Assembly: GCA_022703505.1 (NCBI GenBank)
Contig: JAKLDN010000001.1
Location: 345,389 to 409,388 of the forward strand
DNA: 64,000 nucleotides
Source: Spirochaetota bacterium
GTDB lineage: Bacteria; Spirochaetota; Spirochaetia; Treponematales; UBA12059
Direction of reading: 5' to 3'
In this document: positions 5,300-62,142 of the stretch, piece after piece
Position numbering within the stretch: position 1 is the stretch's first letter
Layout: every line of letters starts with the position of its first letter
Program-made: the position numbers and the translations under genes
Notes under the pieces: generated by a model
Told to the model about the DNA's origin: nothing
Seen by the model: the letters and a program-made list of their open reading frames with translations, nothing else
Database searches by the model: none

Positions 5300-6003
5300 T
5301 TCTCCAGCTGGGCCAGGGAGGCCCGGAGGTCTTTGGGGTCCGGGGCCTCGATCCGCAGGGGAAGGCCCGTTGCGGGATGGGGGATCTCCACGGAGGCGGC
5401 GTGAAGGGCCGCCCGGGCCAGGAGGGGGCGTTCCTCGAAGGGGTCGCCCTTCCACTTTCGCTTGATCGCGGACAGGAGCACCGGCTTGCCGTCCCCGTAC
5501 AGGGGATCGCAGGCCACGGGATAGCCCAGGGCGGCCAGGTGGACCCGGACCTGGTGGGTCCGGCCCGTCTCGGGCCGCGCCTCCACCAGGGCGAAGTCCC
5601 GGAAGGCCGCCAGGACCCGGAAGGCCGTGCGGGAGGGCTTGCCCCGGTGGGCGTCCACGATGGTCCGGTGCAGGGCGTCCCCGTCCGGGGACAGGGGCAG
5701 GTCGCAGGAGGACTCGGCCCAGTCCGGGACCCCCCGGACCAGGGCCCGGTAGACCTTGGCCACGGACCGGGTCTCGAAGGCCCGGGACAGGGAGCGGTGG
5801 GCCTCCTCGCTCCGGGCCAGGAGGAGGACCCCGGAGGTGTCCTTGTCCAGCCGGTGCACCGCCCAGAGCCGGCCCCGGCCCTTGGACAGGAGGGCCGCGG
5901 CCACGGGCAGGTCCGGATCCCAGCGATCCGGGGCTGAGAGCACGCCCGCGGGCTTGTCCGCGGCCAGGAGGGATTCGTCTTCGAACAGGATGGGGATGTT
6001 CAC
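5293..6003 (-). CDS. RluA-family RNA pseudouridine synthase
   Basis: About 236 residues. The catalytic motif HRLDKDTSG is at residues 50-58, with Asp53 as the nucleophile that converts a uridine in rRNA or tRNA to pseudouridine. Other family segments are NIPILFEDESLLAADKPAG at the start and TGRTHQVRVH, GYPVACDPLYG further on. There is no S4 RNA-binding domain, so it resembles the short RluA/RluC-like or TruC class; the exact target base is unknown. No ATG precedes the first conserved strand in a credible position. I use the GTG at 6003 (GTG AAC ATC CCC) although the ribosome site is poor, so the start is uncertain by a few residues. It is the first gene of a pair with polB. Confidence 0.88.
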   Translation of the reverse strand: MNIPILFEDESLLAADKPAGVLSAPDRWDPDLPVAAALLSKGRGRLWAVHRLDKDTSGVLLLARSEEAHRSLSRAFETRSVAKVYRALVRGVPDWAESSCDLPLSPDGDALHRTIVDAHRGKPSRTAFRVLAAFRDFALVEARPETGRTHQVRVHLAALGYPVACDPLYGDGKPVLLSAIKRKWKGDPFEERPLLARAALHAASVEIPHPATGLPLRIEAPDPKDLRASLAQLEKW

Positions 6004-6104
6004 GGGGACAGTATGAAGTGAACGGGAGAAATGGTGAATAGGCAAATCCGGGGGCGAGGCGCCGGAAGCACCCGGACGGGGCTTCGCGGCGGCAGGGGCC
6101 CGGC

Positions 6105-6530
6105 TCAGAAGAGGTCCCGGGCCCTCCTGTGCACCTTGTCCAGGGCCCGCAGGAACTGCCCCCGTTCCTCGGAGTCCAGGACGTCGAGGGGATCGCCCAG
6201 GACCTCGGGGCTCAGGACGCGGGCCGCCTCGATCCGGTCCAGGAGCTCCTCGCCCAGGCCCGTCAGGCGCAGGCGATGGGCGCGGCGGTCGAGCTTCACG
6301 CGGAGCCGGCTGAGCCAGCCCCGGGCCACGCATTTCCGGGCCACGAGGGTCAGGGTCGGCCGGTCCGAAGCCAGCTCTTCGGCCGCCTCGGAGGGCCGGA
6401 TCGCGCCGCGCCGCCTCGCCAGTTGTATCAGGAGGAACTGCGACAGGGTGATCCCGAACCCCTCGAGGGCGGCGGAAGCCCGTTTCCGCCAGAGGCTCTG
6501 GACCATCGTCATGAGTCGGATGCCGTCCAT
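6105..6530 (-). CDS. MarR-family transcriptional regulator
   Basis: A 141-residue winged-helix protein. Residues 25-95 hold the helix-turn-helix and wing: FGITLSQFLLIQLARR, then IRPSEAAEELASDRPTLTLV as the DNA-reading unit, and LDRRAHRLRLTGLGEELL as the beta wing. The C-terminal helix would form the dimer interface. It diverges from groEL. No Shine-Dalgarno precedes the ATG; instead a sigma70-like promoter ends about 9 bases upstream, so the message may be nearly leaderless. An imperfect inverted repeat overlaps that promoter and may be its own operator. The ligand is unknown. Confidence 0.85.
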   Translation of the reverse strand: MDGIRLMTMVQSLWRKRASAALEGFGITLSQFLLIQLARRRGAIRPSEAAEELASDRPTLTLVARKCVARGWLSRLRVKLDRRAHRLRLTGLGEELLDRIEAARVLSPEVLGDPLDVLDSEERGQFLRALDKVHRRARDLF

Positions 6531-6531
6531 A

Positions 6532-6569
6532 TAGTTCGTATACTAATCAAATAAAAAAATCACGGTCAA
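6532..6569 (-). promoter_or_regulatory. Promoter and candidate operator of the MarR gene
   Basis: On the minus strand a TTGACC -35 (6564-6569) and TAGTAT -10 (6540-6545) are separated by 18 bases in an AT-rich pocket. Transcription should start around 6533, only two or three bases before the ATG. The -10 lies inside an inverted repeat at 6532-6545 with arms TAGT and ACTA, a plausible autoregulatory MarR site. Read by eye only. Confidence 0.5.
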
Positions 6570-6628
6570 GGGCCCAAAACCCTTGCCGCTCTACCCGCTT
6601 TTTCGGTATTTTCTGACTGACCTCGTGA

Positions 6629-8371
<1,743 letters not shown>

Positions 8372-8401
8372 TCGCGGAAGCCTCAATCGCCGCATGATAG
8401 G

Positions 8402-8426
8402 GCGCCCCGAAAGGGGCGCTTCTTAT
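8402..8426 (+). terminator. groEL intrinsic terminator (first of three)
   Basis: Seven-base-pair stem GCGCCCC/GGGGCGC with a GAAA loop (8402-8419), followed by TTCTTAT. It lies 30 bases after the groEL TGA. Confidence 0.8.
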
Positions 8427-8620
8427 TTCATGCCGCCCATTCCGTTTCTGGGCATCGCCGAACGCCAGTTCGGCGCCGCGAGGTCCCGAGGGGACCTCGC
8501 GCGGCACGCCGTGGTCGCGCAAGCGACCACTACAATCTCTTCCTTGCGGCGCCAAGCGCGAAGCGCTTGATGGGCGGGATGGATTACTAAAGGCCGGCCA
8601 ACCAGCACGCTGACTAGATG

Positions 8621-8646
8621 GGCCGCCCGCAAGGGCGGCCTTTTCT
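8621..8646 (+). terminator. Intrinsic terminator after second groEL tail
   Basis: Eight-base-pair stem GGCCGCCC/GGGCGGCC with a GCAA tetraloop (8621-8640), followed by TTTTCTT. It lies 30 bases after the TAA of the second tail copy, the same spacing as the first terminator. Confidence 0.85.
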
Positions 8647-8821
8647 TACAGGCCGCCCATTCTGGAGATAAGCTGCGAAGCGGGTCGAGCGAAAGCGAGA
8701 CTTTTTGCGGGCGGCACGCCGTGGTCGCGCAAGCGACCACTACAATCTCTTCCTTGCGGCGCCAAGCGCGAAGCGCTTGATGGGCGGGATGGACTACTAG
8801 TCCGCGGACAACCAATAAGCT

Positions 8822-8858
8822 GTAAAAAGGGCCGGGCCGCAAGGCTCGGTTTTTTACC
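8822..8858. terminator. Bidirectional terminator after third groEL tail
   Basis: Stem CCGGGCC/GGCTCGG (one G-T pair) with a GCAA loop at 8832-8849, flanked by an A-run on the left and T6 on the right. It can end both rightward transcripts and the leftward transcript of the lipoprotein gene. Confidence 0.75.
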
Positions 8859-8917
8859 GCCGCCAATGACGCTGGTTAAGTTTTCAAACACCAACTCGAC
8901 GTCCTTGAGCGTCGGCG

Positions 8918-9622
8918 TCACGGGTTCCAGTCATGGTAAACCCGTTCTCCCGCCGTATACCGGACGGTGACCCTGCGAAGGTAGAAATTGCTATCCGCCG
9001 GATCCGAACTATTATGTCCATGTATGAACGGTGCGTAACCCACGGAAGGAGCATTGCTCGCAGTGATCGTGGTCGACCGTATAAAGGTATCATTCATATA
9101 GAGTGCAATGATATTCCCGGATCGGACCAGGGTACAAGTATTTATACCAATGACCATTCCGGGGACATTCCCGTCAATATCTGAGTATGAATAGGATCCG
9201 TTACCCTGGGAAACTTGGTAGTACGCATCGACATGTTCCGGGAAAGCCGTGTAATAAGCGGCGAAACTGTAGTACTTACGGGTCGTCGAGTTTTCCTAAT
9301 TCGGATCAACCAGTCGAATTGCGTATCGGTAGATGTCTTCCCCCGAAAGCACCTTAAGGTAGAATTCGAACTCTGCCTCGAAATCTCCCGTGAACAGATA
9401 TGGTGCAGCAATATCTGTTTGATTCATGTAGAAGCCTTGCGAGTATTCCCCGGTATTGCCTCCGTCGAAGTACCAGTCGCTATCCAGAACCGCTTCCCCG
9501 TCCGTCATGAAGTCCCGCTCCCACACGACATCACTTGGTAGATCACTGCCCGGCGCGCAACCTGCGCAGACGAGGGTTGAGAGTAATACAACAACCAGGA
9601 CGTAGGACAATCTCGATGCCAT
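8918..9622 (-). pseudogene. Putative lipoprotein gene split by an in-frame TAG
   Basis: One reading frame of 235 codons runs from ATG 9622 to TGA 8918 and is interrupted once, by TAG at 9296-9298 (codon 109). I translated the stretch after the stop (residues ENSTTRKYYSFAAYY and onward). It continues smoothly into the part beginning MVIGINTCTLVRSGN with the same aromatic/polar beta-strand character, so this is one gene. The N-terminus is a hydrophobic signal peptide ending LVCAGC, an atypical lipobox with Cys22 as the likely lipidated residue. The rest looks like a secreted beta-sandwich of the laminin-G/DUF1080 type, by pattern only. An excellent GAGGAGGAG ribosome site (9623-9634) precedes the ATG. 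Local base composition is much less GC-rich than the neighbours, suggesting transfer. It could be a decayed gene, a base-call error or a recoded stop. Confidence 0.65.
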
Positions 9623-10104
9623 GATCTCCTCCTCGGGTCAGTAATGGGTATCCGTCACCGCAAAAGCGGCACTTGGTTGAGGAACCGTACGTTTAGAGGG
9701 GATTCCAAGAAAAACGGACAAGCTCTCAGAGGGCTCTGAGAACCAAGTATCGCATCCTGCACGGGTACGGAAAAGGATGATTTCACATTTTCCCTGCTTT
9801 TTGGAATCCTTGACTATAGTTTCATTCGTACTCCTGATGCTGTCAACGACCGGACTTCGGCTTCTTCTCGGACTCATGTCCGATGGTTTCCGGCCTCCCG
9901 TTGCCGATATACCGCGATTCCGCATCAACTGAAGTCAAGTGGAGCTCCGCCGAGTCCAGGATGCGGCGATGAAAGCGCCATCTGGAGGAGGAATCGGCTC
10001 CCTCGGCCTTGAACTCCTTGACTGTACATTCCCTGCATGCGAAGACTCTCCGAGGTGGAATACGTAGCATTGGCGCACCATCCTCATAGTAGGGAGGCTC
10101 GACG
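9623..10104. other. Low-GC stretch without a supported gene
   Basis: About 480 bases of lower GC than the surroundings. Short open frames exist on both strands but lack ribosome sites, domain motifs and codon bias, so I call none of them. An inverted repeat ACTTGGTT (9671-9678) / AACCAAGT (9741-9748) encloses a smaller perfect hairpin TCTCAGAG/CTCTGAGA at 9724-9741. This would lie in the 5' leader of the lipoprotein message. The ribosome site of the SIS gene (AGGGAGG) lies at the right end. Confidence 0.5.
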
Positions 10105-11118
10105 ATGAATGACCACGGCGCCTATAACCGGCACTCCCTGGTACGCGAGATGCTCCAGACTCCCGACCTCATCCGGTCGTTCCGCCTGAAGGACGCGGAG
10201 CCCGTGATCGCGGCCGTCCGGGAGACCGGCAAGGTGATCCTCACGGGCGAAGGCTCCAGCCGCATCTTCCCGGCCAAGAACGCCGTCGCCTGGGCGCGCA
10301 GGAAAGGACTCCGCCTCGACCTGGTCACCGGGGGCAGCCGTCAAGCCTCCGAGTACGACCTAGGCGACCGGGTGGTGATGGGCGCCTCCAACAGCGGCCG
10401 GACCCGGGAGCTGATCGCCCTTTTCGAAGCCTTGAGGAAACGGGGCCACAGGCGGCTCTACTCGATCACCGCGAATCCGGGTACCCCGCTCGAGTCCCTG
10501 TCCGATCGGACTTTCCTCCTGACCTGCGGAAGGGAAGACGCGGTGGCGGCCACGAAAAGCGTCCAGGAGATGGCTCTCTTCTATTTCGCGCTGCTGAACG
10601 CCGCGGAGGGACTCGGGATCGACGATCAGCTGGCCGAAGCCGCCGAGGCCGTCGAGCGCGCACTGCGGATGCCGATAGACGGGGAGATCACGGAAGCCGT
10701 GGCGGGCGCGTCGACGCTGTACTTCGCCGGACGCGACGACGGGGTCGCCGAGGAGCTCGCGCTTAAGACCAACGAGATCATCCGAAGGAAAAGCGGTTAC
10801 TTCGAGGGAACCTACGCGCTGCACGGCGTCGAGGAGGTATTGAACCCCGACGACGTCGTGCTTTGGATCGAACCCTTCGAGGAGGAATACGAGAAGATCC
10901 GGTCCGCCTTGATCGACGGCGTGGGGATGAAGGTCCTGGCGATCTCCGAAAAGGATACGCCGTTCCCGACGATCCGGATACGAGGCGCCCGGGAACTGAC
11001 CAACCTCGTCCGCCTGGCCGCGGGGTGGAACCTGCTGGTCGAGGCGGGGATGCGTCTGGGAATCGACCTGGACCGGCCCGCACGGGCCCGGAAGGTCGGT
11101 AACGAGTTCACCGGGTAG
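10105..11118 (+). CDS. SIS-domain sugar-phosphate isomerase/deglycase
   Basis: A 337-residue protein with two SIS (sugar isomerase) folds, like the isomerase half of GlmS and the AgaS/FrlB group. The first sugar-phosphate loop reads LTGEGSSR (residues 47-54) and the second GASNSGRTRE near 91. The C-terminal KVGNEFTG matches the closing motif of this class. Such enzymes act on amino-sugar or glycated phosphates in the cytoplasm; the substrate cannot be read from the sequence. AGGGAGG precedes the ATG at good spacing. It stands alone between the low-GC island and a convergent flavodoxin gene, which it overlaps by 11 bases at the 3' ends. Confidence 0.85.
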   Translation: MNDHGAYNRHSLVREMLQTPDLIRSFRLKDAEPVIAAVRETGKVILTGEGSSRIFPAKNAVAWARRKGLRLDLVTGGSRQASEYDLGDRVVMGASNSGRTRELIALFEALRKRGHRRLYSITANPGTPLESLSDRTFLLTCGREDAVAATKSVQEMALFYFALLNAAEGLGIDDQLAEAAEAVERALRMPIDGEITEAVAGASTLYFAGRDDGVAEELALKTNEIIRRKSGYFEGTYALHGVEEVLNPDDVVLWIEPFEEEYEKIRSALIDGVGMKVLAISEKDTPFPTIRIRGARELTNLVRLAAGWNLLVEAGMRLGIDLDRPARARKVGNEFTG

Positions 11119-11650
11119 TCCGGCTCGGCTCCAAGCGTTCACCCCGCGGGGCCGCGAGCAGCCCCCTCGCGAAATCCTCCGCCCTCGCAAGGTCCGCGGC
11201 GTCCGGTCTTCCCTTGTTGAGGCCCCCGAAGTGCTTCAGGAAGCTGTTCGTGTTGAACCCCACGCAGGAGAACTCCCCCGCGATCGCGTAGCCGCGGTCC
11301 GCCAGCCGGGCCCGGAGCTCCGCATGATTGGCCTCGACCAGCCGATCGAACGCCTCCCCCCGGGCGAAGGCTGCGGGAACCCCGCAGGTGGAGAAGAGGA
11401 AGACCCGTCGCCCCCCGCCGGGAGGGAGGCGATCCGCCAGGTCCAGGATGGGCCGGTAGTGCCGGCCGGAGTCGATCCCCGCGCCGAAGCCGACCAGGTC
11501 GTACTCCCCGAGGGTCGCCGGGTCGACCCGATCGGGCGTCCGGACTTCCGCCCCCAGGATTCGGGCCAGGGCCTCGGCCACCTTCCGGGTGTTCCCGTGG
11601 TGCCAGGAATGGACGATCACCAGGGCCTCGGATCCGGCCTGCCCCCTCAT
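11108..11650 (-). CDS. Flavodoxin-family protein
   Basis: 180 residues. The N-terminal loop after the first strand, VIVHSWHHGNTRKVAEALA, is the flavodoxin phosphate-binding loop for FMN. It is followed by a GFGAGIDSGRHY strand-loop and FLFSTCGVP, the second flavin contact. It probably works as an FMN electron carrier or small NAD(P)H-quinone-type reductase. I chose the ATG at 11650, which overlaps the TGA of the upstream DUF4386 gene (ATGA), rather than the long open frame above it. It is the last gene of a four-gene operon with DUF2975, HTH and DUF4386 proteins. The 3' end overlaps that of the convergent SIS gene by 11 bases. Confidence 0.8.
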   Translation of the reverse strand: MRGQAGSEALVIVHSWHHGNTRKVAEALARILGAEVRTPDRVDPATLGEYDLVGFGAGIDSGRHYRPILDLADRLPPGGGRRVFLFSTCGVPAAFARGEAFDRLVEANHAELRARLADRGYAIAGEFSCVGFNTNSFLKHFGGLNKGRPDAADLARAEDFARGLLAAPRGERLEPSRTTR

Positions 11651-12360
11651 GCCGCGCCGCCCTTCCCGGGGACCACCCCCGGGATGCCGGCGGACGCGCG
11701 GAACCCCTTCACGATCATCCATACCGCCATGACCATCTCCTGCAGGAAGATCGGGAAATGGATCCAGGCCGGCACCGCGGTGGCTCTTCCGTTCCCCCGG
11801 AACAGGTCGAAGAATCCGGCGCCCAAATCCACGAGGATAGCGGCCAGGCCCCAGACGGATATCCATCTCGGAACGAGGCGCGATCGATAGAACGAGCCGT
11901 ACAGGATCAGGGCGCCCAGGCTGAAGGTGAACACGGTCATCATCCGGACCGCTTCCGAAATCCGCAGGACGGCTTCCCCCGCGGCCCGGAGCCCCGCCCC
12001 GTCGGCCTCCCCGGCGCGGACGATCTGGGGGGCCAGCCCGGCCAGGACGATCCAGCAGGCGGTGATCAGGATATAGGTGACGGTCTCCAGGGCGCCCCGG
12101 AACACCACGTATCCGACGGCGGAGACCTCGCTCTCCCGTTTCAAGATCGGGTACATCAGGATCGGCACGAAGGCCAGGGCCAGACCCATGGTCAGGATGG
12201 CCTGGGCCCCCGCCTGCATGCGGGGGCCCAGGGCGGCGATCCCGGTGAAGGGGTCCGGGGCTCCGAAGCCGAAACCCGCCAGGATCACGCTGGCCACCCC
12301 CGAAACGGTTCCCAGTATGTACAGGCCGCCGACCGCAACGGCCGTCCTACGTTCATTCAT
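11647..12360 (-). CDS. DUF4386 integral membrane protein
   Basis: 237 residues with about six hydrophobic helices. It matches the DUF4386 pattern: AVGGLYILGTVSGVAS at the start, PILMYPILKRESE, GYVVFRGALETVTY, a SLGALILYGSFYRSRLVPRWISVWGL block, and IFLQEMVMAVWMIVKGF at the end. No catalytic function is known for the family. Its start overlaps the upstream HTH gene by 8 bases and its end overlaps the flavodoxin gene by 4, so it is translated as part of a compact operon. A distant relative occurs at 17082-17735, also next to a regulator. Confidence 0.82.
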   Translation of the reverse strand: MNERRTAVAVGGLYILGTVSGVASVILAGFGFGAPDPFTGIAALGPRMQAGAQAILTMGLALAFVPILMYPILKRESEVSAVGYVVFRGALETVTYILITACWIVLAGLAPQIVRAGEADGAGLRAAGEAVLRISEAVRMMTVFTFSLGALILYGSFYRSRLVPRWISVWGLAAILVDLGAGFFDLFRGNGRATAVPAWIHFPIFLQEMVMAVWMIVKGFRASAGIPGVVPGKGGAA

Positions 12361-12583
12361 CGTTGTCCTCCTCCGGTCCCCCGGGAACGTACTCCAACAG
12401 GTCCCCGGGCTGGCAGGATAGCTCCCTGCACAGGGCGTTCAGGGTCGATACGCGCACCGCCCGGGCCTTCCCGGTCTTCAGTATGGAAAGGTTCGAGTCG
12501 GTCAAGCCGATCCGCCGGGCCAGCTCGTTGAGCGGCATCTTGCGGTCCGCCATCATCCGGTCCAGCCGGAATATGATGCTCAT
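12353..12583 (-). CDS. Cro/CI-type helix-turn-helix regulator
   Basis: 76 residues, almost entirely one HTH_3 domain: LNELARRIGLTDSNLSILKTGKARAVRVSTLNALCRELSCQPGDLLEYVP. This is the short YozG-like type usually encoded beside DUF2975 membrane proteins, exactly the pairing seen here. It is likely to regulate this operon. AAGGAG precedes the ATG at 12583. The stop overlaps the next gene. Confidence 0.88.
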   Translation of the reverse strand: MSIIFRLDRMMADRKMPLNELARRIGLTDSNLSILKTGKARAVRVSTLNALCRELSCQPGDLLEYVPGGPEEDNDE

Positions 12584-12594
12584 CTGAAGTCTCC

Positions 12595-13086
12595 TTACAC
12601 GGTCAGGTCGTGCTCTTCCTTGAGGACCGTTCCGGCCGCCAGGATCTCGCAGATCAAAAGCAGGATCACGGCCGTCAGGAAGGATCCCGCGCTGAAGGTC
12701 AGGACGGCCAGGGCGATGACCAGCTTGCTGGTCCGGCGGATGAGACGCACGTTCCCGGCGTCGAACACGACCTCGTCCTTGAAATTGGAGAAGAGCGACC
12801 GGGTTTTCCGGAGCACCATCAGGACCAGGGTCATGACCGCGCCGAAGTACGGCAAGATGAGGACGCGGACTCCCAGGGGCAGGCTCTGGAACCTCTCCCA
12901 GTCGCGGATGTCCGACCGGGAGCTTTCCGCCATTCCCCGGGAGAAGGGGCTGCCGAGCTGTTCATGGAAGACGATCACCGTGCCCAGGACGATCGCGAGG
13001 GCGGCGCACAGCCAGGCCAGGTACCAGGCGACGGTCAGCAAGCCGTGCATGAACGAAGAAAGGGATCGGGTGCCGAAGTATTTCAT
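12595..13086 (-). CDS. DUF2975 membrane protein
   Basis: 163 residues with four hydrophobic helices (about 12-40, 70-95, 112-135 and 138-158). It carries the DUF2975 signatures LFSNFKDEVVFDAGNVRLIRR and VLKEEHDLTV. The family is typically co-encoded with a short HTH regulator, as here, and may sense a membrane or peptide signal; the function is not established. I selected the ATG at 13086 because it has a near-perfect AAAGGAGGT ribosome site, whereas the open frame continues 19 codons upstream without one. First gene of the operon that runs to 11108. Confidence 0.82.
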   Translation of the reverse strand: MKYFGTRSLSSFMHGLLTVAWYLAWLCAALAIVLGTVIVFHEQLGSPFSRGMAESSRSDIRDWERFQSLPLGVRVLILPYFGAVMTLVLMVLRKTRSLFSNFKDEVVFDAGNVRLIRRTSKLVIALAVLTFSAGSFLTAVILLLICEILAAGTVLKEEHDLTV

Positions 13087-13114
13087 GGGAGGACCTCCTT
13101 TGGTTCTCGCCATG

Positions 13115-13143
13115 AATATATCATCCCGCTTTCTGTTATTCAA
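13115..13143 (-). promoter_or_regulatory. Promoter of the DUF2975-HTH-DUF4386-flavodoxin operon
   Basis: TTGAAT (13138-13143) and TATATT (13115-13120) on the minus strand, separated by exactly 17 bases, in a strongly AT-rich intergenic block (about 13120-13210). The predicted start lies about 22 bases before the DUF2975 ATG, leaving room for the AAAGGAGGT site. Confidence 0.6.
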
Positions 13144-13250
13144 GTGTTATTTATTGTTTTTCAATAATTTTTAATTATTCGTCAACTATACGGTATTGAA
13201 TTTCAACAATAAGACACCGCGACGACCGTTCAGGCGCCGAGGCGGCCCTC

Positions 13251-14357
13251 CTACCGGTCCACCCGGTTGATCATGAGGGCCTGGGATCCGTCCGGACGGG
13301 ACTGCTGCCAGGTGGCGATATAGGAGTCCGGGGCGGCCAGGACGTCCACGTAGCGCAGACAGCCTGTCCCGTCGGGGCTCGCGAACTCGGGAAAGATCTC
13401 GGAGAGCCGTAGGAAGGCCGTTGGATCACCATCCACGAAATACCCCAGGCCGCCCAGTTCCTCGCAGGAATAGCCCCGGGGCCGCCGGACCGCGCTCGCG
13501 TGCTCGTCCAGGTTGCGCAGGCACTCCCCCCCGTCGTAGAAGGCCAGGCCGAGACCCGCGGGCCAGTCCGAGGGGGCCGTCCTCGCGCCCGGGGGCGGCC
13601 CGGGCAGGGGGAGAACGCAGGTGCCCCGGGTGATGGCGACGTCCCAGGCGGGTCCCCGGGGCCAGCAGTCGAAGACGGGAGGTCCCTCGGCATCCCCATC
13701 CGGCCCGAGGGGAAGGTACCCGGTGCCGCTGGAGGACCAGTTGAAGGAGTGGTGGCAGAAGAAGAGGTACTGGCCATTCCCGGGGCGCTCGGCCAGGAAG
13801 GGATCCTTGACCTGCAGGGTAGCCGGATCCGCGCCGGCCGCGACGGTCCGGGGCCGCGCCCCGGCCAAGCCCTCCAGAGTCGGGGCGGACAGGCGCTCGA
13901 TGGTCCAGATGCCCGTGCCGGGCTTCTGAAAGGCCTCGACGGGGGCGGGGTACGGGACGCGTTTTTCCGAGGAGACGTAGAGATCCACTCTCCCCGGGTC
14001 GAAGCGCAGGGCGGAGCCCTCGATCGATAGCGCCTCCCGGCCGTCCGGACAGACCGCGGCCTTGTCGAAGGACAGGACCTTCTCCCAGGACCGGCCGCCG
14101 TCCCGGGAGGCGAAGACCGCGAGTTCCCGGCCCCGGTCCCCCAGGTCCAGGCCCGTCCGGGAATCCCCCGCGCTGCGGTACCGGCCCGTCAGGAAGAGCC
14201 GTCCGTCGGGGCCGACGGTCATGTTGCCGCCCCCGAACCAGTAGCCCCTCTCGGGGCGCTCCGGAGGGATCGCCACCCGTGCGGCCGCGGGATCGACCAG
14301 GCGATGCGCGAAGGAGCGCAGATCCGACAAGACTCGGGAATCGACGGGACGGGTCAT
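13251..14357 (-). CDS. Asp-box (sialidase-like) beta-propeller protein
   Basis: 368 residues without a signal peptide. An Asp-box SRDGGRSW near residue 85 and alternating short beta segments suggest a sialidase/BNR-type propeller. The N-terminal GYWFGGGNMTVGPDGRLFLTGRYR and later SSSGTGYL, WPRGPAWDVAITRG and YSCEELGGLGYFVDG segments resemble uncharacterised glycoside-hydrolase-like proteins. The catalytic residues of sialidases are not evident, so the reaction is unknown. I prefer the ATG at 14357 over the one at 14363 because GAGGAG (14364-14369) then sits at six bases; with the other ATG it would abut the start. Monocistronic by context. Confidence 0.6.
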   Translation of the reverse strand: MTRPVDSRVLSDLRSFAHRLVDPAAARVAIPPERPERGYWFGGGNMTVGPDGRLFLTGRYRSAGDSRTGLDLGDRGRELAVFASRDGGRSWEKVLSFDKAAVCPDGREALSIEGSALRFDPGRVDLYVSSEKRVPYPAPVEAFQKPGTGIWTIERLSAPTLEGLAGARPRTVAAGADPATLQVKDPFLAERPGNGQYLFFCHHSFNWSSSGTGYLPLGPDGDAEGPPVFDCWPRGPAWDVAITRGTCVLPLPGPPPGARTAPSDWPAGLGLAFYDGGECLRNLDEHASAVRRPRGYSCEELGGLGYFVDGDPTAFLRLSEIFPEFASPDGTGCLRYVDVLAAPDSYIATWQQSRPDGSQALMINRVDR

Positions 14358-18706: not shown

Positions 18707-19585
18707 CTACAACTCGAAGCGGCGCCGGAGCCGCATGATCAGGGCGCTCAGGGTGAGCACCAGGAGGAAGAGGAAGACCAGGACCACCGAGGACTGGCCC
18801 ATCCGGAAATACTCGAAGCTGTACTTGAAGGCCATGACGTTGAGGGTCTCCGATGCGTAGCCCGGTCCCCCTCCGGTCATGGCGTAGATGATGTCGAAGG
18901 TTTTCAGGACGTCGATGGCCCGGAGGATCATGGCGGTCAGGAGGGTCGGCGCGATCATGGGCAGGGTGATGCGGAAGAAGATCTGCGGCCCCGTGGCCCC
19001 GTCCACCCGGGCGGACTCGTAGGGTTCCGGCGAGAGCCCCGCCAAGCCCGCCAGGACGATGAGGGTGATCATGGGGGTCCACTGCCAGATGTCCACCAGG
19101 GCCAGGGAGGGGATGACCGTGGCCGCCCCGGAGACCCAGGCCTGGCGGGGCAGGCCGAAGAGGGACAGGACGTAGTTGGCCAGCCCGATGGTCGGGTCGT
19201 AGAAGAGGTTCCAGACGATGCCGATGGCCACCGGGGTGGCCACCAGGGGCAGGAGCAGGATGAGCTTCATGAAGCCCTTGCCCCGGAACTTCCGGTTCAG
19301 GAGGAGGGCCAGGCCCAGTCCCAGGAGGGTTTCCGCGGTCAGGGCCAGGGCGGTGAAGGAGAAGGTCCGCCCCAGGGCGTCCAAAAAACGCGGCTCCCGA
19401 AGCACCCGGAGGTAGGATCGGAAGCCCACCAGGGCGAAGGGCATGCCGGAGGTCAGGTTCCAGTTGCTGAAGGAGAGGAACAGGGTGTAGAGGACCGGGA
19501 AGACCATCATCACGACGACGAAGGCCACCGCGGGCAGGGGGAAGAGGACGTTCAGGTGCCGTTCCAGGATACCGCTCTTCCGCAT
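18707..19585 (-). CDS. Sugar ABC transporter permease, MalF type
   Basis: 292 residues with six membrane spans. The EAA motif PEPYESARVDGATGPQIFFRITLPMI is near residue 200. The GGPGYASETLNVMAF segment is typical of CUT1 permeases. I use the ATG at 19585, preceded by GGAGGGG; an upstream TTG at 19600 lies inside that ribosome site. A 149-base multi-hairpin element separates this gene from the binding-protein gene upstream, which could lower permease expression relative to the binding protein. Confidence 0.93.
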   Translation of the reverse strand: MRKSGILERHLNVLFPLPAVAFVVVMMVFPVLYTLFLSFSNWNLTSGMPFALVGFRSYLRVLREPRFLDALGRTFSFTALALTAETLLGLGLALLLNRKFRGKGFMKLILLLPLVATPVAIGIVWNLFYDPTIGLANYVLSLFGLPRQAWVSGAATVIPSLALVDIWQWTPMITLIVLAGLAGLSPEPYESARVDGATGPQIFFRITLPMIAPTLLTAMILRAIDVLKTFDIIYAMTGGGPGYASETLNVMAFKYSFEYFRMGQSSVVLVFLFLLVLTLSALIMRLRRRFEL

Positions 19586-37130: not shown

Positions 37131-38434
37131 GCTTCCGCATCCTGATCGCCGACGACGAGCAGCTGGAGCGGCAGGCCCTGGCCCACATCCTGGGCGGACT
37201 TTCCGACCGGGGCGTCGAGCTGGTCGAAGCCGCCAACGGGCGCCAGGCCGTGGCGGCGGCCTCCGGGGGAGGAATCGACCTGGCCTTCCTGGACATCCGG
37301 ATGCCCGGCATGGACGGCCTGGAGGCGGCTCGGATCCTCCGGGACGCCGACCCCGGTATCCACATCGTCTTCGTGACCGCCTTCGACAAGTTCGACTACG
37401 CCCGGGAGGCCCTGCGGCTGGGGGTGGACGAGTACCTGGTCAAGCCCGCGGCCGCGGACGAGGTGCTGGCCATGGCCCGGCGAATCCTGGACCGCCTGGA
37501 GCGGGAGCGGCTCGGGCCGGGGGCTTCCTCCGACGGAGCTCTGTCCCTGCTGGAGGACGAGCTCCGCGCCGACCTTGGTCGGGACCTTGGTCGGGACCTT
37601 GGTCGGGACCTTGGTCGGGACGCGGACCGGGACGCCGAGATCCGGGAGCGGCTGGCCGCCTTCCTCCGGCTCCGGGGCTGCCAGGGCCGGATCGCGGCGG
37701 CCCTGGTGCTCCGGCCCGCGGGCCCGGCCGCCCCGGAACCCGGCCCCTTCCCCCGGCGCCCGATCGGCCGGGGTACCCGGGAGCTCCTGGAGCGGCGCCT
37801 CCGGGAGGCCGGGTGGTACGCCCTGGCGGGGGAGGGGGAGCCCGAACTCCGCTGCCTGGCGGTCGCCCCCTCCTCCGAAGGCGCGGAGGCGGAGGCGGAG
37901 GAAGCCCTGTGGGCCGTACTGGCGGCCTTGACGGAGGAGCTCCGCCGGTCCCTGGGAATCCGGGTCCTGACCGGGGCCTGCCTCTCCCCCGACGGGTCTC
38001 CCCGTTTCCGGGAGGCCCGCCAAGCCGCGGCTTTAGCCCGGATCGACCGGCCCGTGGTGATCCTGACGGACGACCCGGGTCCTCACGCGGCCTCCGAGGA
38101 CGCGGACGGCCCCGGAGCCGGGGCCGTCGAGCGGGCCGTCGACTACCTGCGGGAGCATCTGGCCGAGAACCTTTCCCTGGTCGACGTGGCCCGGGCCGTA
38201 GGCACCGCCCCCTCCCACCTCTCCCGCCTCTTCCGCCGCCACCGGGGGGAAACCTTCGTCCAGGTCTTCTGCCGGCTCCGCGTCGACGCGGCCAAGCGCC
38301 TGCTCCGGACCGGCGCCTACCGGGTCAAGGAGACCGCGTCCCTGGTGGGGTTCAAGGACACCGCCTATTTCTGCCGGGTCTTCCGCAAGTACGAGGGGGC
38401 CAGCCCCTCGGAGTACCAGGCCGGCTCCGGATAG
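37127..38434 (+). CDS. AraC-type response regulator, YesN class
   Basis: 435 residues. The receiver domain spans 1-120 with phospho-acceptor Asp56 (FLDIRMPGMDG), the acidic pair DDE near 9, and the lysine of EYLVKPAAA. A long middle region follows, and a C-terminal AraC HTH pair (about 340-430: LVDVARAVGTAPSHLSRLFRRHRGETFVQVF and VKETASLVGFKDTAYFCRVFRKYEGASPSEYQ). The GTG start overlaps the kinase stop. Residues 149-164 are four perfect LGRD repeats encoded by a 12-base tandem repeat. It is expected to activate the TRAP transporter genes that begin 131 bases downstream. Confidence 0.9.
   Translation: MSFRILIADDEQLERQALAHILGGLSDRGVELVEAANGRQAVAAASGGGIDLAFLDIRMPGMDGLEAARILRDADPGIHIVFVTAFDKFDYAREALRLGVDEYLVKPAAADEVLAMARRILDRLERERLGPGASSDGALSLLEDELRADLGRDLGRDLGRDLGRDADRDAEIRERLAAFLRLRGCQGRIAAALVLRPAGPAAPEPGPFPRRPIGRGTRELLERRLREAGWYALAGEGEPELRCLAVAPSSEGAEAEAEEALWAVLAALTEELRRSLGIRVLTGACLSPDGSPRFREARQAAALARIDRPVVILTDDPGPHAASEDADGPGAGAVERAVDYLREHLAENLSLVDVARAVGTAPSHLSRLFRRHRGETFVQVFCRLRVDAAKRLLRTGAYRVKETASLVGFKDTAYFCRVFRKYEGASPSEYQAGSG
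37571..37618 (+). repeat. 12-base tandem repeat within response-regulator gene
   Basis: Four perfect copies of GACCTTGGTCGG, followed by a degenerate fifth (37619-37630). Each copy adds four residues (L-G-R-D), so gain or loss of a unit keeps the frame and changes only the length of the linker after the receiver domain. Confidence 0.95.
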
Positions 38435-61586: not shown

Positions 61587-61608
61587 CCCGGGTCTCCCGG
61601 CCGTCCCA

Positions 61609-62142
61609 CATCGCCTAGACTGGCAAGAGCGCCGCAGCCCTTCAGGGTTCCTGGAACGTGCGGACAGGAGGTCCGCACCGACACCCGCGGAAGCGCCTTG
61701 CGCTTCCGCGATGGCGATGTTGTACAAGGATGTACAACATCGCATAGACTCGCAAGAGCGCCGCAGCCCTTCAGGGTTCCTGGAACGTGCGGACAGGAGG
61801 TCCGCACCGACACCCGCGGAAGCGCCTTGCGCTTCCGCGATGGCGATGTTGTACAGGGATGTACAACATCGCTTAGACTCGCAAGAGCGCCGCAGGCCCT
61901 TCAGGGTTCCTGGAACGTGCGGACAGGAGGTCCGCACCGACACCCGCGGAAGCGCCTTGCGCTTCCGCGATGGCGATGTTGTACAGGGATGTACAACATC
62001 GCCTAGACTCGCAAGAGCGCCGCAGGCCCTTTAGGGTTCCTGGAACGTGCGGACAGGAGGTCCGCACCGACACCCGCGGAAGCGCCTTGCGCTTCCGCGA
62101 TGGCGATGTTGTACAGGGATGTACAACATCGCCTAGACTCGC
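61609..62142. repeat. Fourfold 129/130-bp multi-hairpin tandem array
   Basis: Four near-identical head-to-tail units (61609-61737, 61738-61866, 61867-61996, 61997-62126) and a partial fifth edge to 62142. Each unit has three long perfect hairpins: GTGCGGAC/GTCCGCAC (for example 61917-61937), CGCGGAAGCGC/GCGCTTCCGCG (61945-61969) and GGCGATGTTGTACA/TGTACAACATCGCC (61972-62003). A weaker CCC-TTCA-GGG-type hairpin makes a fourth. Units differ at a handful of bases. The junction sequence GCGAGTCTAGGCGATG (minus strand) occurs at every boundary, with changes in the outer copies, and its right-most copy forms the last codons and stop of the MATE gene. There is no unique spacer between units, so it is not a CRISPR. 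Confidence 0.95.

Follow-up and report, generated by a model that had tools for sequence, protein, structure and literature searches.

In the Spirochaetota genome analysed here, an orphan gene lying next to groEL is probably a recently acquired gene for a small exported protein that has been inactivated by a single amber nonsense mutation. The gene was found in a stretch of 64,000 nucleotides, below called the window, and belongs to a small islet between groEL and a flavodoxin-like gene (Table 1). In favour of this reading, the islet is missing from both same-genus genomes (2/2), and the frame is intact apart from the TAG, with coding signal beyond it. Moreover, the neighbouring SIS-domain gene is foreign to the family, the GC3 of the orphan gene is below that of its neighbours, and no UAG-decoding apparatus was found. 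Against it, the codon scores are under those of held-out E. coli genes, and the frame carries only a moderate coding signal beyond the TAG.

Table 1. Coordinates of the orphan gene, its signals and its neighbours (positions in the window).
Feature	Position	Strand	Basis or remark
groEL, left neighbour of the islet	6713..8371	+	NCBIfam GroEL
Islet, absent from both same-genus genomes G001 and G002	8868..11158 (~2.3 kb, borders approximate)		blastn
Terminal TGA of the full frame	8918..8920	-	sequence reading
Orphan ORF, putative exported lipoprotein-like protein	8921..9622	-	234 codons with the TAG counted as one
In-frame amber TAG	9296..9298 (read 9298-9296)	-	codon 109 of 234; next base G
Ribosome-binding site AGGAGG	9628..9633	-	five bases before the ATG, read directly from the sequence
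SIS-domain sugar-phosphate isomerase/deaminase-like gene	10105..11118	+	Pfam SIS, 1.9e-12
Flavodoxin-like gene, right neighbour of the islet	11108..11866	-	Pfam, sub-threshold

The orphan frame (9622-8918) starts with ATG at 9622-9620 and is split by the TAG into 108 codons before it and 125 codons after it. A first-pass annotation of this DNA had described an excellent ribosome site, a signal peptide and a frame undamaged but for one amber codon. All three descriptions hold. AGGAGG (9633-9628) stands five bases before the ATG. The N-terminus is a putative signal sequence of lipoprotein-like character, as judged by eye only; it is not a textbook lipobox, since the residue at position -3 is cysteine. 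The only lesion is the single in-frame stop, with no frameshift and no second stop between 9622 and 8918. The remaining five frames over the gene contain 4, 13, 5, 15 and 9 stops.

The main rival explanation holds the gene to be intact and attributes the TAG to a base-call or assembly error, or to a minority variant in a mixed sample. A lone lesion among 234 codons with no other damage, in a genome that is a 14-contig draft, is consistent with such an error. However, there is no positive sign of one, and completeness and contamination of the genome are rated at 98.5% and 1.29%. We consider this explanation rather unlikely.

Coding character was assessed separately on the two sides of the TAG. 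It is conceivable, although improbable, that only the 108-codon ORF up to the TAG is a real gene, the frame beyond it being a leftover or a product of chance. The good start and the signal sequence do sit in the first part, and the codon scores are weaker beyond the TAG. However, among 50,000 first-order Markov resamplings with the same composition, 519 kept the 125-codon continuation open, and 56 attained its RNY bias. For comparison, 774 left the part before the TAG without a stop; 4416 attained the RNY bias of that part, which is weak taken alone. Codon log-odds were derived from 35 E. coli K-12 genes, and the scores were compared among six frames and with 5000 base shuffles. The score of codons 2-108 was matched by 12 shuffles, that of the mature codons 24-108 by none, that of codons 110-234 by 61, and that of codons 110-155, the 46 codons right after the TAG, by 170. 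In each of these four segments frame 0 is the best of the six, which for codons 110-155 again argues against a gene that ends at the TAG. All these scores are under those of held-out E. coli genes, yet within the range of five genes from the window.

The initial description of the frame as continuous in character across the TAG stands. The coding signal persists after the stop, but it is weaker there, and for codons 156-234 taken alone one antisense frame scores slightly above frame 0 (-0.202 vs -0.239), the frame-0 score being matched by 445 of the 5000 shuffles. Overall, the continuity of the frame across the TAG exceeds chance, and the second half is moderately supported. Given the Markov and codon-score results on both sides, one gene spanning the TAG is likely, not certain. 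As in bacterial pseudogenes, the disruption lies within an otherwise open frame with coding character on both sides, moderate after the TAG.

The islet borders were derived by blastn of window positions 6000-13300 against the groEL regions of G001 and G002, the sole other same-genus genomes compared. In both of them the groEL 3' region runs directly into the match to window position 11159 and onward; in G002 the left-hand match already ends at 8697. The islet consists of two divergent genes, the orphan on the minus strand and the SIS-domain gene on the plus strand. The 3' end of the flavodoxin-like gene differs from the version in the same-genus genomes. To the right of the islet, the minus-strand frames 11108-11866 (flavodoxin-like, sub-threshold) and 11647-12360 (DUF4386) overlap, and a large part of 11212-12227 finds no match in G002.

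At E 1e-20, the SIS-domain gene is matched in none of 22 other genomes of the family. Its relatives were found in 20 other genomes of the phylum, with 45-53% identity (13 genomes of the same class and seven of other classes), none of which belongs to the same order. Since the gene is absent in the family yet scattered in the phylum, its gain here is favoured over repeated loss. A scan of genome contigs yielded one distant locus, in a record labelled uncultured Clostridia bacterium. None of the 21 loci with SIS relatives (L106-L126) has a relative of the orphan gene nearby, the best match having E 0.30. The ORFs adjoining the SIS gene were inspected at seven of these 21 loci; several of the neighbours carry the motif HAHPDD and are presumably PIG-L-type deacetylases.

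The two islet genes differ in base composition. The orphan gene has a GC content of 50-52% and GC3 of 0.55-0.58, compared with GC3 of 0.86 in the SIS-domain gene and 0.80-0.97 in the called genes flanking the orphan on either side. The orphan and the SIS-domain gene may perhaps be separate arrivals.

The orphan gene is an ORFan in the collections searched. There is no second copy in its own genome and no match in 57 related genomes. The phylum was searched at E 0.1 in 392 genomes including its own (391 others, some of them shared with the 57 relatives). Matches were observed in 14 genomes, namely the orphan itself and 13 foreign ones; all 13 foreign matches were inspected and rejected as chance, being short or of low identity and mostly situated within longer frames. 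No credible relatives were found in GTDB genome contigs, viral contigs, phages or PDB; the only match in plasmids, with E 0.6, and the best match in PHROGs, with E 0.13, are not credible either. The protein belongs to no Pfam or NCBIfam family at the respective cut-off. Its top Pfam match, PF03417, has 14.4-16 bits against a cut-off of 23.2 and was treated as chance.

The fold of the orphan protein was modelled from the single sequence with the TAG read as glutamine, and the model is unreliable (pLDDT 35). None of the 443 matches of this model to PDB has E 0.001 or better; the top-ranked, though insignificant, ones include beta-glucanases and galectins. Predicted strands on either side of the TAG resemble exported proteins of the Concanavalin A-like, or jelly-roll, type (e.g. 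GH16-type folds). However, with this pLDDT, no fold match at the threshold and no Pfam or NCBIfam family, the likeness is a lead only. The searches found no intact homologue that would prove the two halves to have once been one protein.

Decoding of UAG by a suppressor tRNA or a pyrrolysine system is extremely unlikely in this genome. All 44 tRNA matches were typed by ARAGORN, and none of them (0/44) has the CUA anticodon; this count refers to a 14-contig draft and a general tRNA model that may miss pylT. ARAGORN named no isoleucine tRNA among the 44, which points to a probably incomplete tRNA set and leaves some room for such decoding. On the other hand, the best match to the PylS C-terminal model reached 25.5 bits, the cut-off being 178.15; the same model produced weak matches in all 14 control genomes and exceeded the cut-off in one of them. 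The test for substrate genes covered the MttB family alone (PF06253), with no match in the genome. Finally, among 54 window genes called by GC3, 17 end with TAG, 29 with TGA and 8 with TAA; as TAG terminates 17 of the 54, UAG is an ordinary stop here. Some of the TAG-ending genes (e.g. at 18707, 22072, 27660 and 33279) have long in-frame continuations into the next called gene of an adjacent pair; all such cases are presumably ordinary neighbours.

The orphan gene resembles pyrrolysine-encoding amber genes in that its frame stays open past an in-frame TAG. It differs from them in its genomic setting, without PylS above the cut-off, CUA among the typed tRNAs or MttB. The genome-wide check for a suppressor tRNA, pylT or pylS proposed in the first-pass annotation thus produced no candidate, and the option of a suppressible stop, listed there, has lost support.

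Programmed or selected leaky termination, in which an exported protein would be made with 108 residues and, more rarely, at full length, appears very unlikely. The frame after the stop is undamaged, and the base following the TAG is G; according to PMC5289835, it is +4U that reduces read-through in E. coli. As the +4 base is not U, the stop context is not the tightest, but this is no evidence of read-through. Against leaky termination, no relatives were found and thus no conservation of the stop or of the extension. Further, the RNA after and around the TAG is no more stable than shuffled sequences in pseudoknot-free folding (z 0.81, 1.23 and 0.84), with 157, 184 and 160 of 200 shuffles, respectively, folding at least as well. 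The option of two-state expression, also raised initially, has gained nothing positive, with neither conservation among relatives nor structure after the stop. Its specific form would be a selected leaky stop in an exported protein unique to this organism: most molecules would be the 108-residue form and a minority would include the C-terminal half, so that a two-state surface protein would arise without dedicated UAG decoding; this too is very unlikely. Only proof of read-through at this stop would lend the present case more weight, since, to our knowledge, bacterial chromosomal genes rarely show selected amber read-through where a special tRNA is lacking.

The option of a freshly dead gene, among those listed at the outset, fits best: the gene is an ORFan, its islet is absent from both same-genus genomes, and it has one lesion and no frameshift. 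According to this inactivation scenario, the gene would have been newly gained into the islet next to groEL, and its ancestral product would have been one protein of about 234 residues. A single nonsense change may then have created the TAG at codon 109. The mutation is presumably recent, given the lack of a second lesion. What is made now would be an exported fragment of 108 residues, non-functional or degraded.

A similar situation has been described in E. coli and Shigella. According to PMC2275313, inactivated acquired genes there are largely restricted to one genome and quickly removed, and ORFans are inactivated mainly by truncation. The orphan gene shares with such genome-specific ORFan pseudogenes the lack of homologues and the occurrence in one genome among those searched; it is likewise of atypical base composition and would have been inactivated while young (PMC2275313). 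It differs in that its lesion is one nonsense codon, whereas those in PMC2275313 are predominantly truncations, and in having no known intact copy. Being broken already in the sole genome that carries it, the orphan gene would illustrate, on a small scale, fast gene turnover of the kind that is ordinary in genomes.

In the region between groEL and the islet (8351-8867), modules follow one another in tandem, and every one includes a groEL tail copy (MGGMDY and stop). In this genome the tail copies are at 8351, 8570 and 8780, with hairpins or terminators between them. A scan with one tail pattern, allowing up to two substitutions, covered 23 groEL loci from 21 genomes, several of the loci being cut by contig ends or having only a part of groEL. 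Three copies were observed in G000, G001, G010 and G017, and two in G002 and G013. Ten genomes (G004, G008, G014, G015, G016, G018, G019, G020, G021, G022) have one copy, and five (G006, G007, G009, G011, G012) have none. The copies within one genome differ only in the stop codon or, synonymously, at third codon positions; each copy thus looks like a former, real GroEL tail that was displaced downstream. At nine of the 23 loci, viewed by eye, a terminator-like hairpin comes after the copies, and at most of the nine an inverted segment of the tail sequence does so as well. A tail-swapping or insertion process may operate at groEL. A literature search on GroEL tails and duplication returned no title about such modules, which is no test of novelty. 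The groEL-tail modules look more unusual than the orphan gene.

The modules contain further repeats. A palindromic part of 72 nucleotides (8498-8569) has just two full-length occurrences in the genome, each of them at groEL; partial matches to it are situated at G000:C2:37519 and G001:C43:2074. A perfect inverted repeat of 16 nucleotides (8338-8353 and 8429-8444) links the GGM-coding tail of groEL with the sequence after the terminator-like hairpin. Elsewhere in the window, a unit of 130 nucleotides is repeated in 4.1 tandem copies with 98% matches at 61608-62142, and a unit of 12 nucleotides forms 4.2 perfect copies at 37571-37621.
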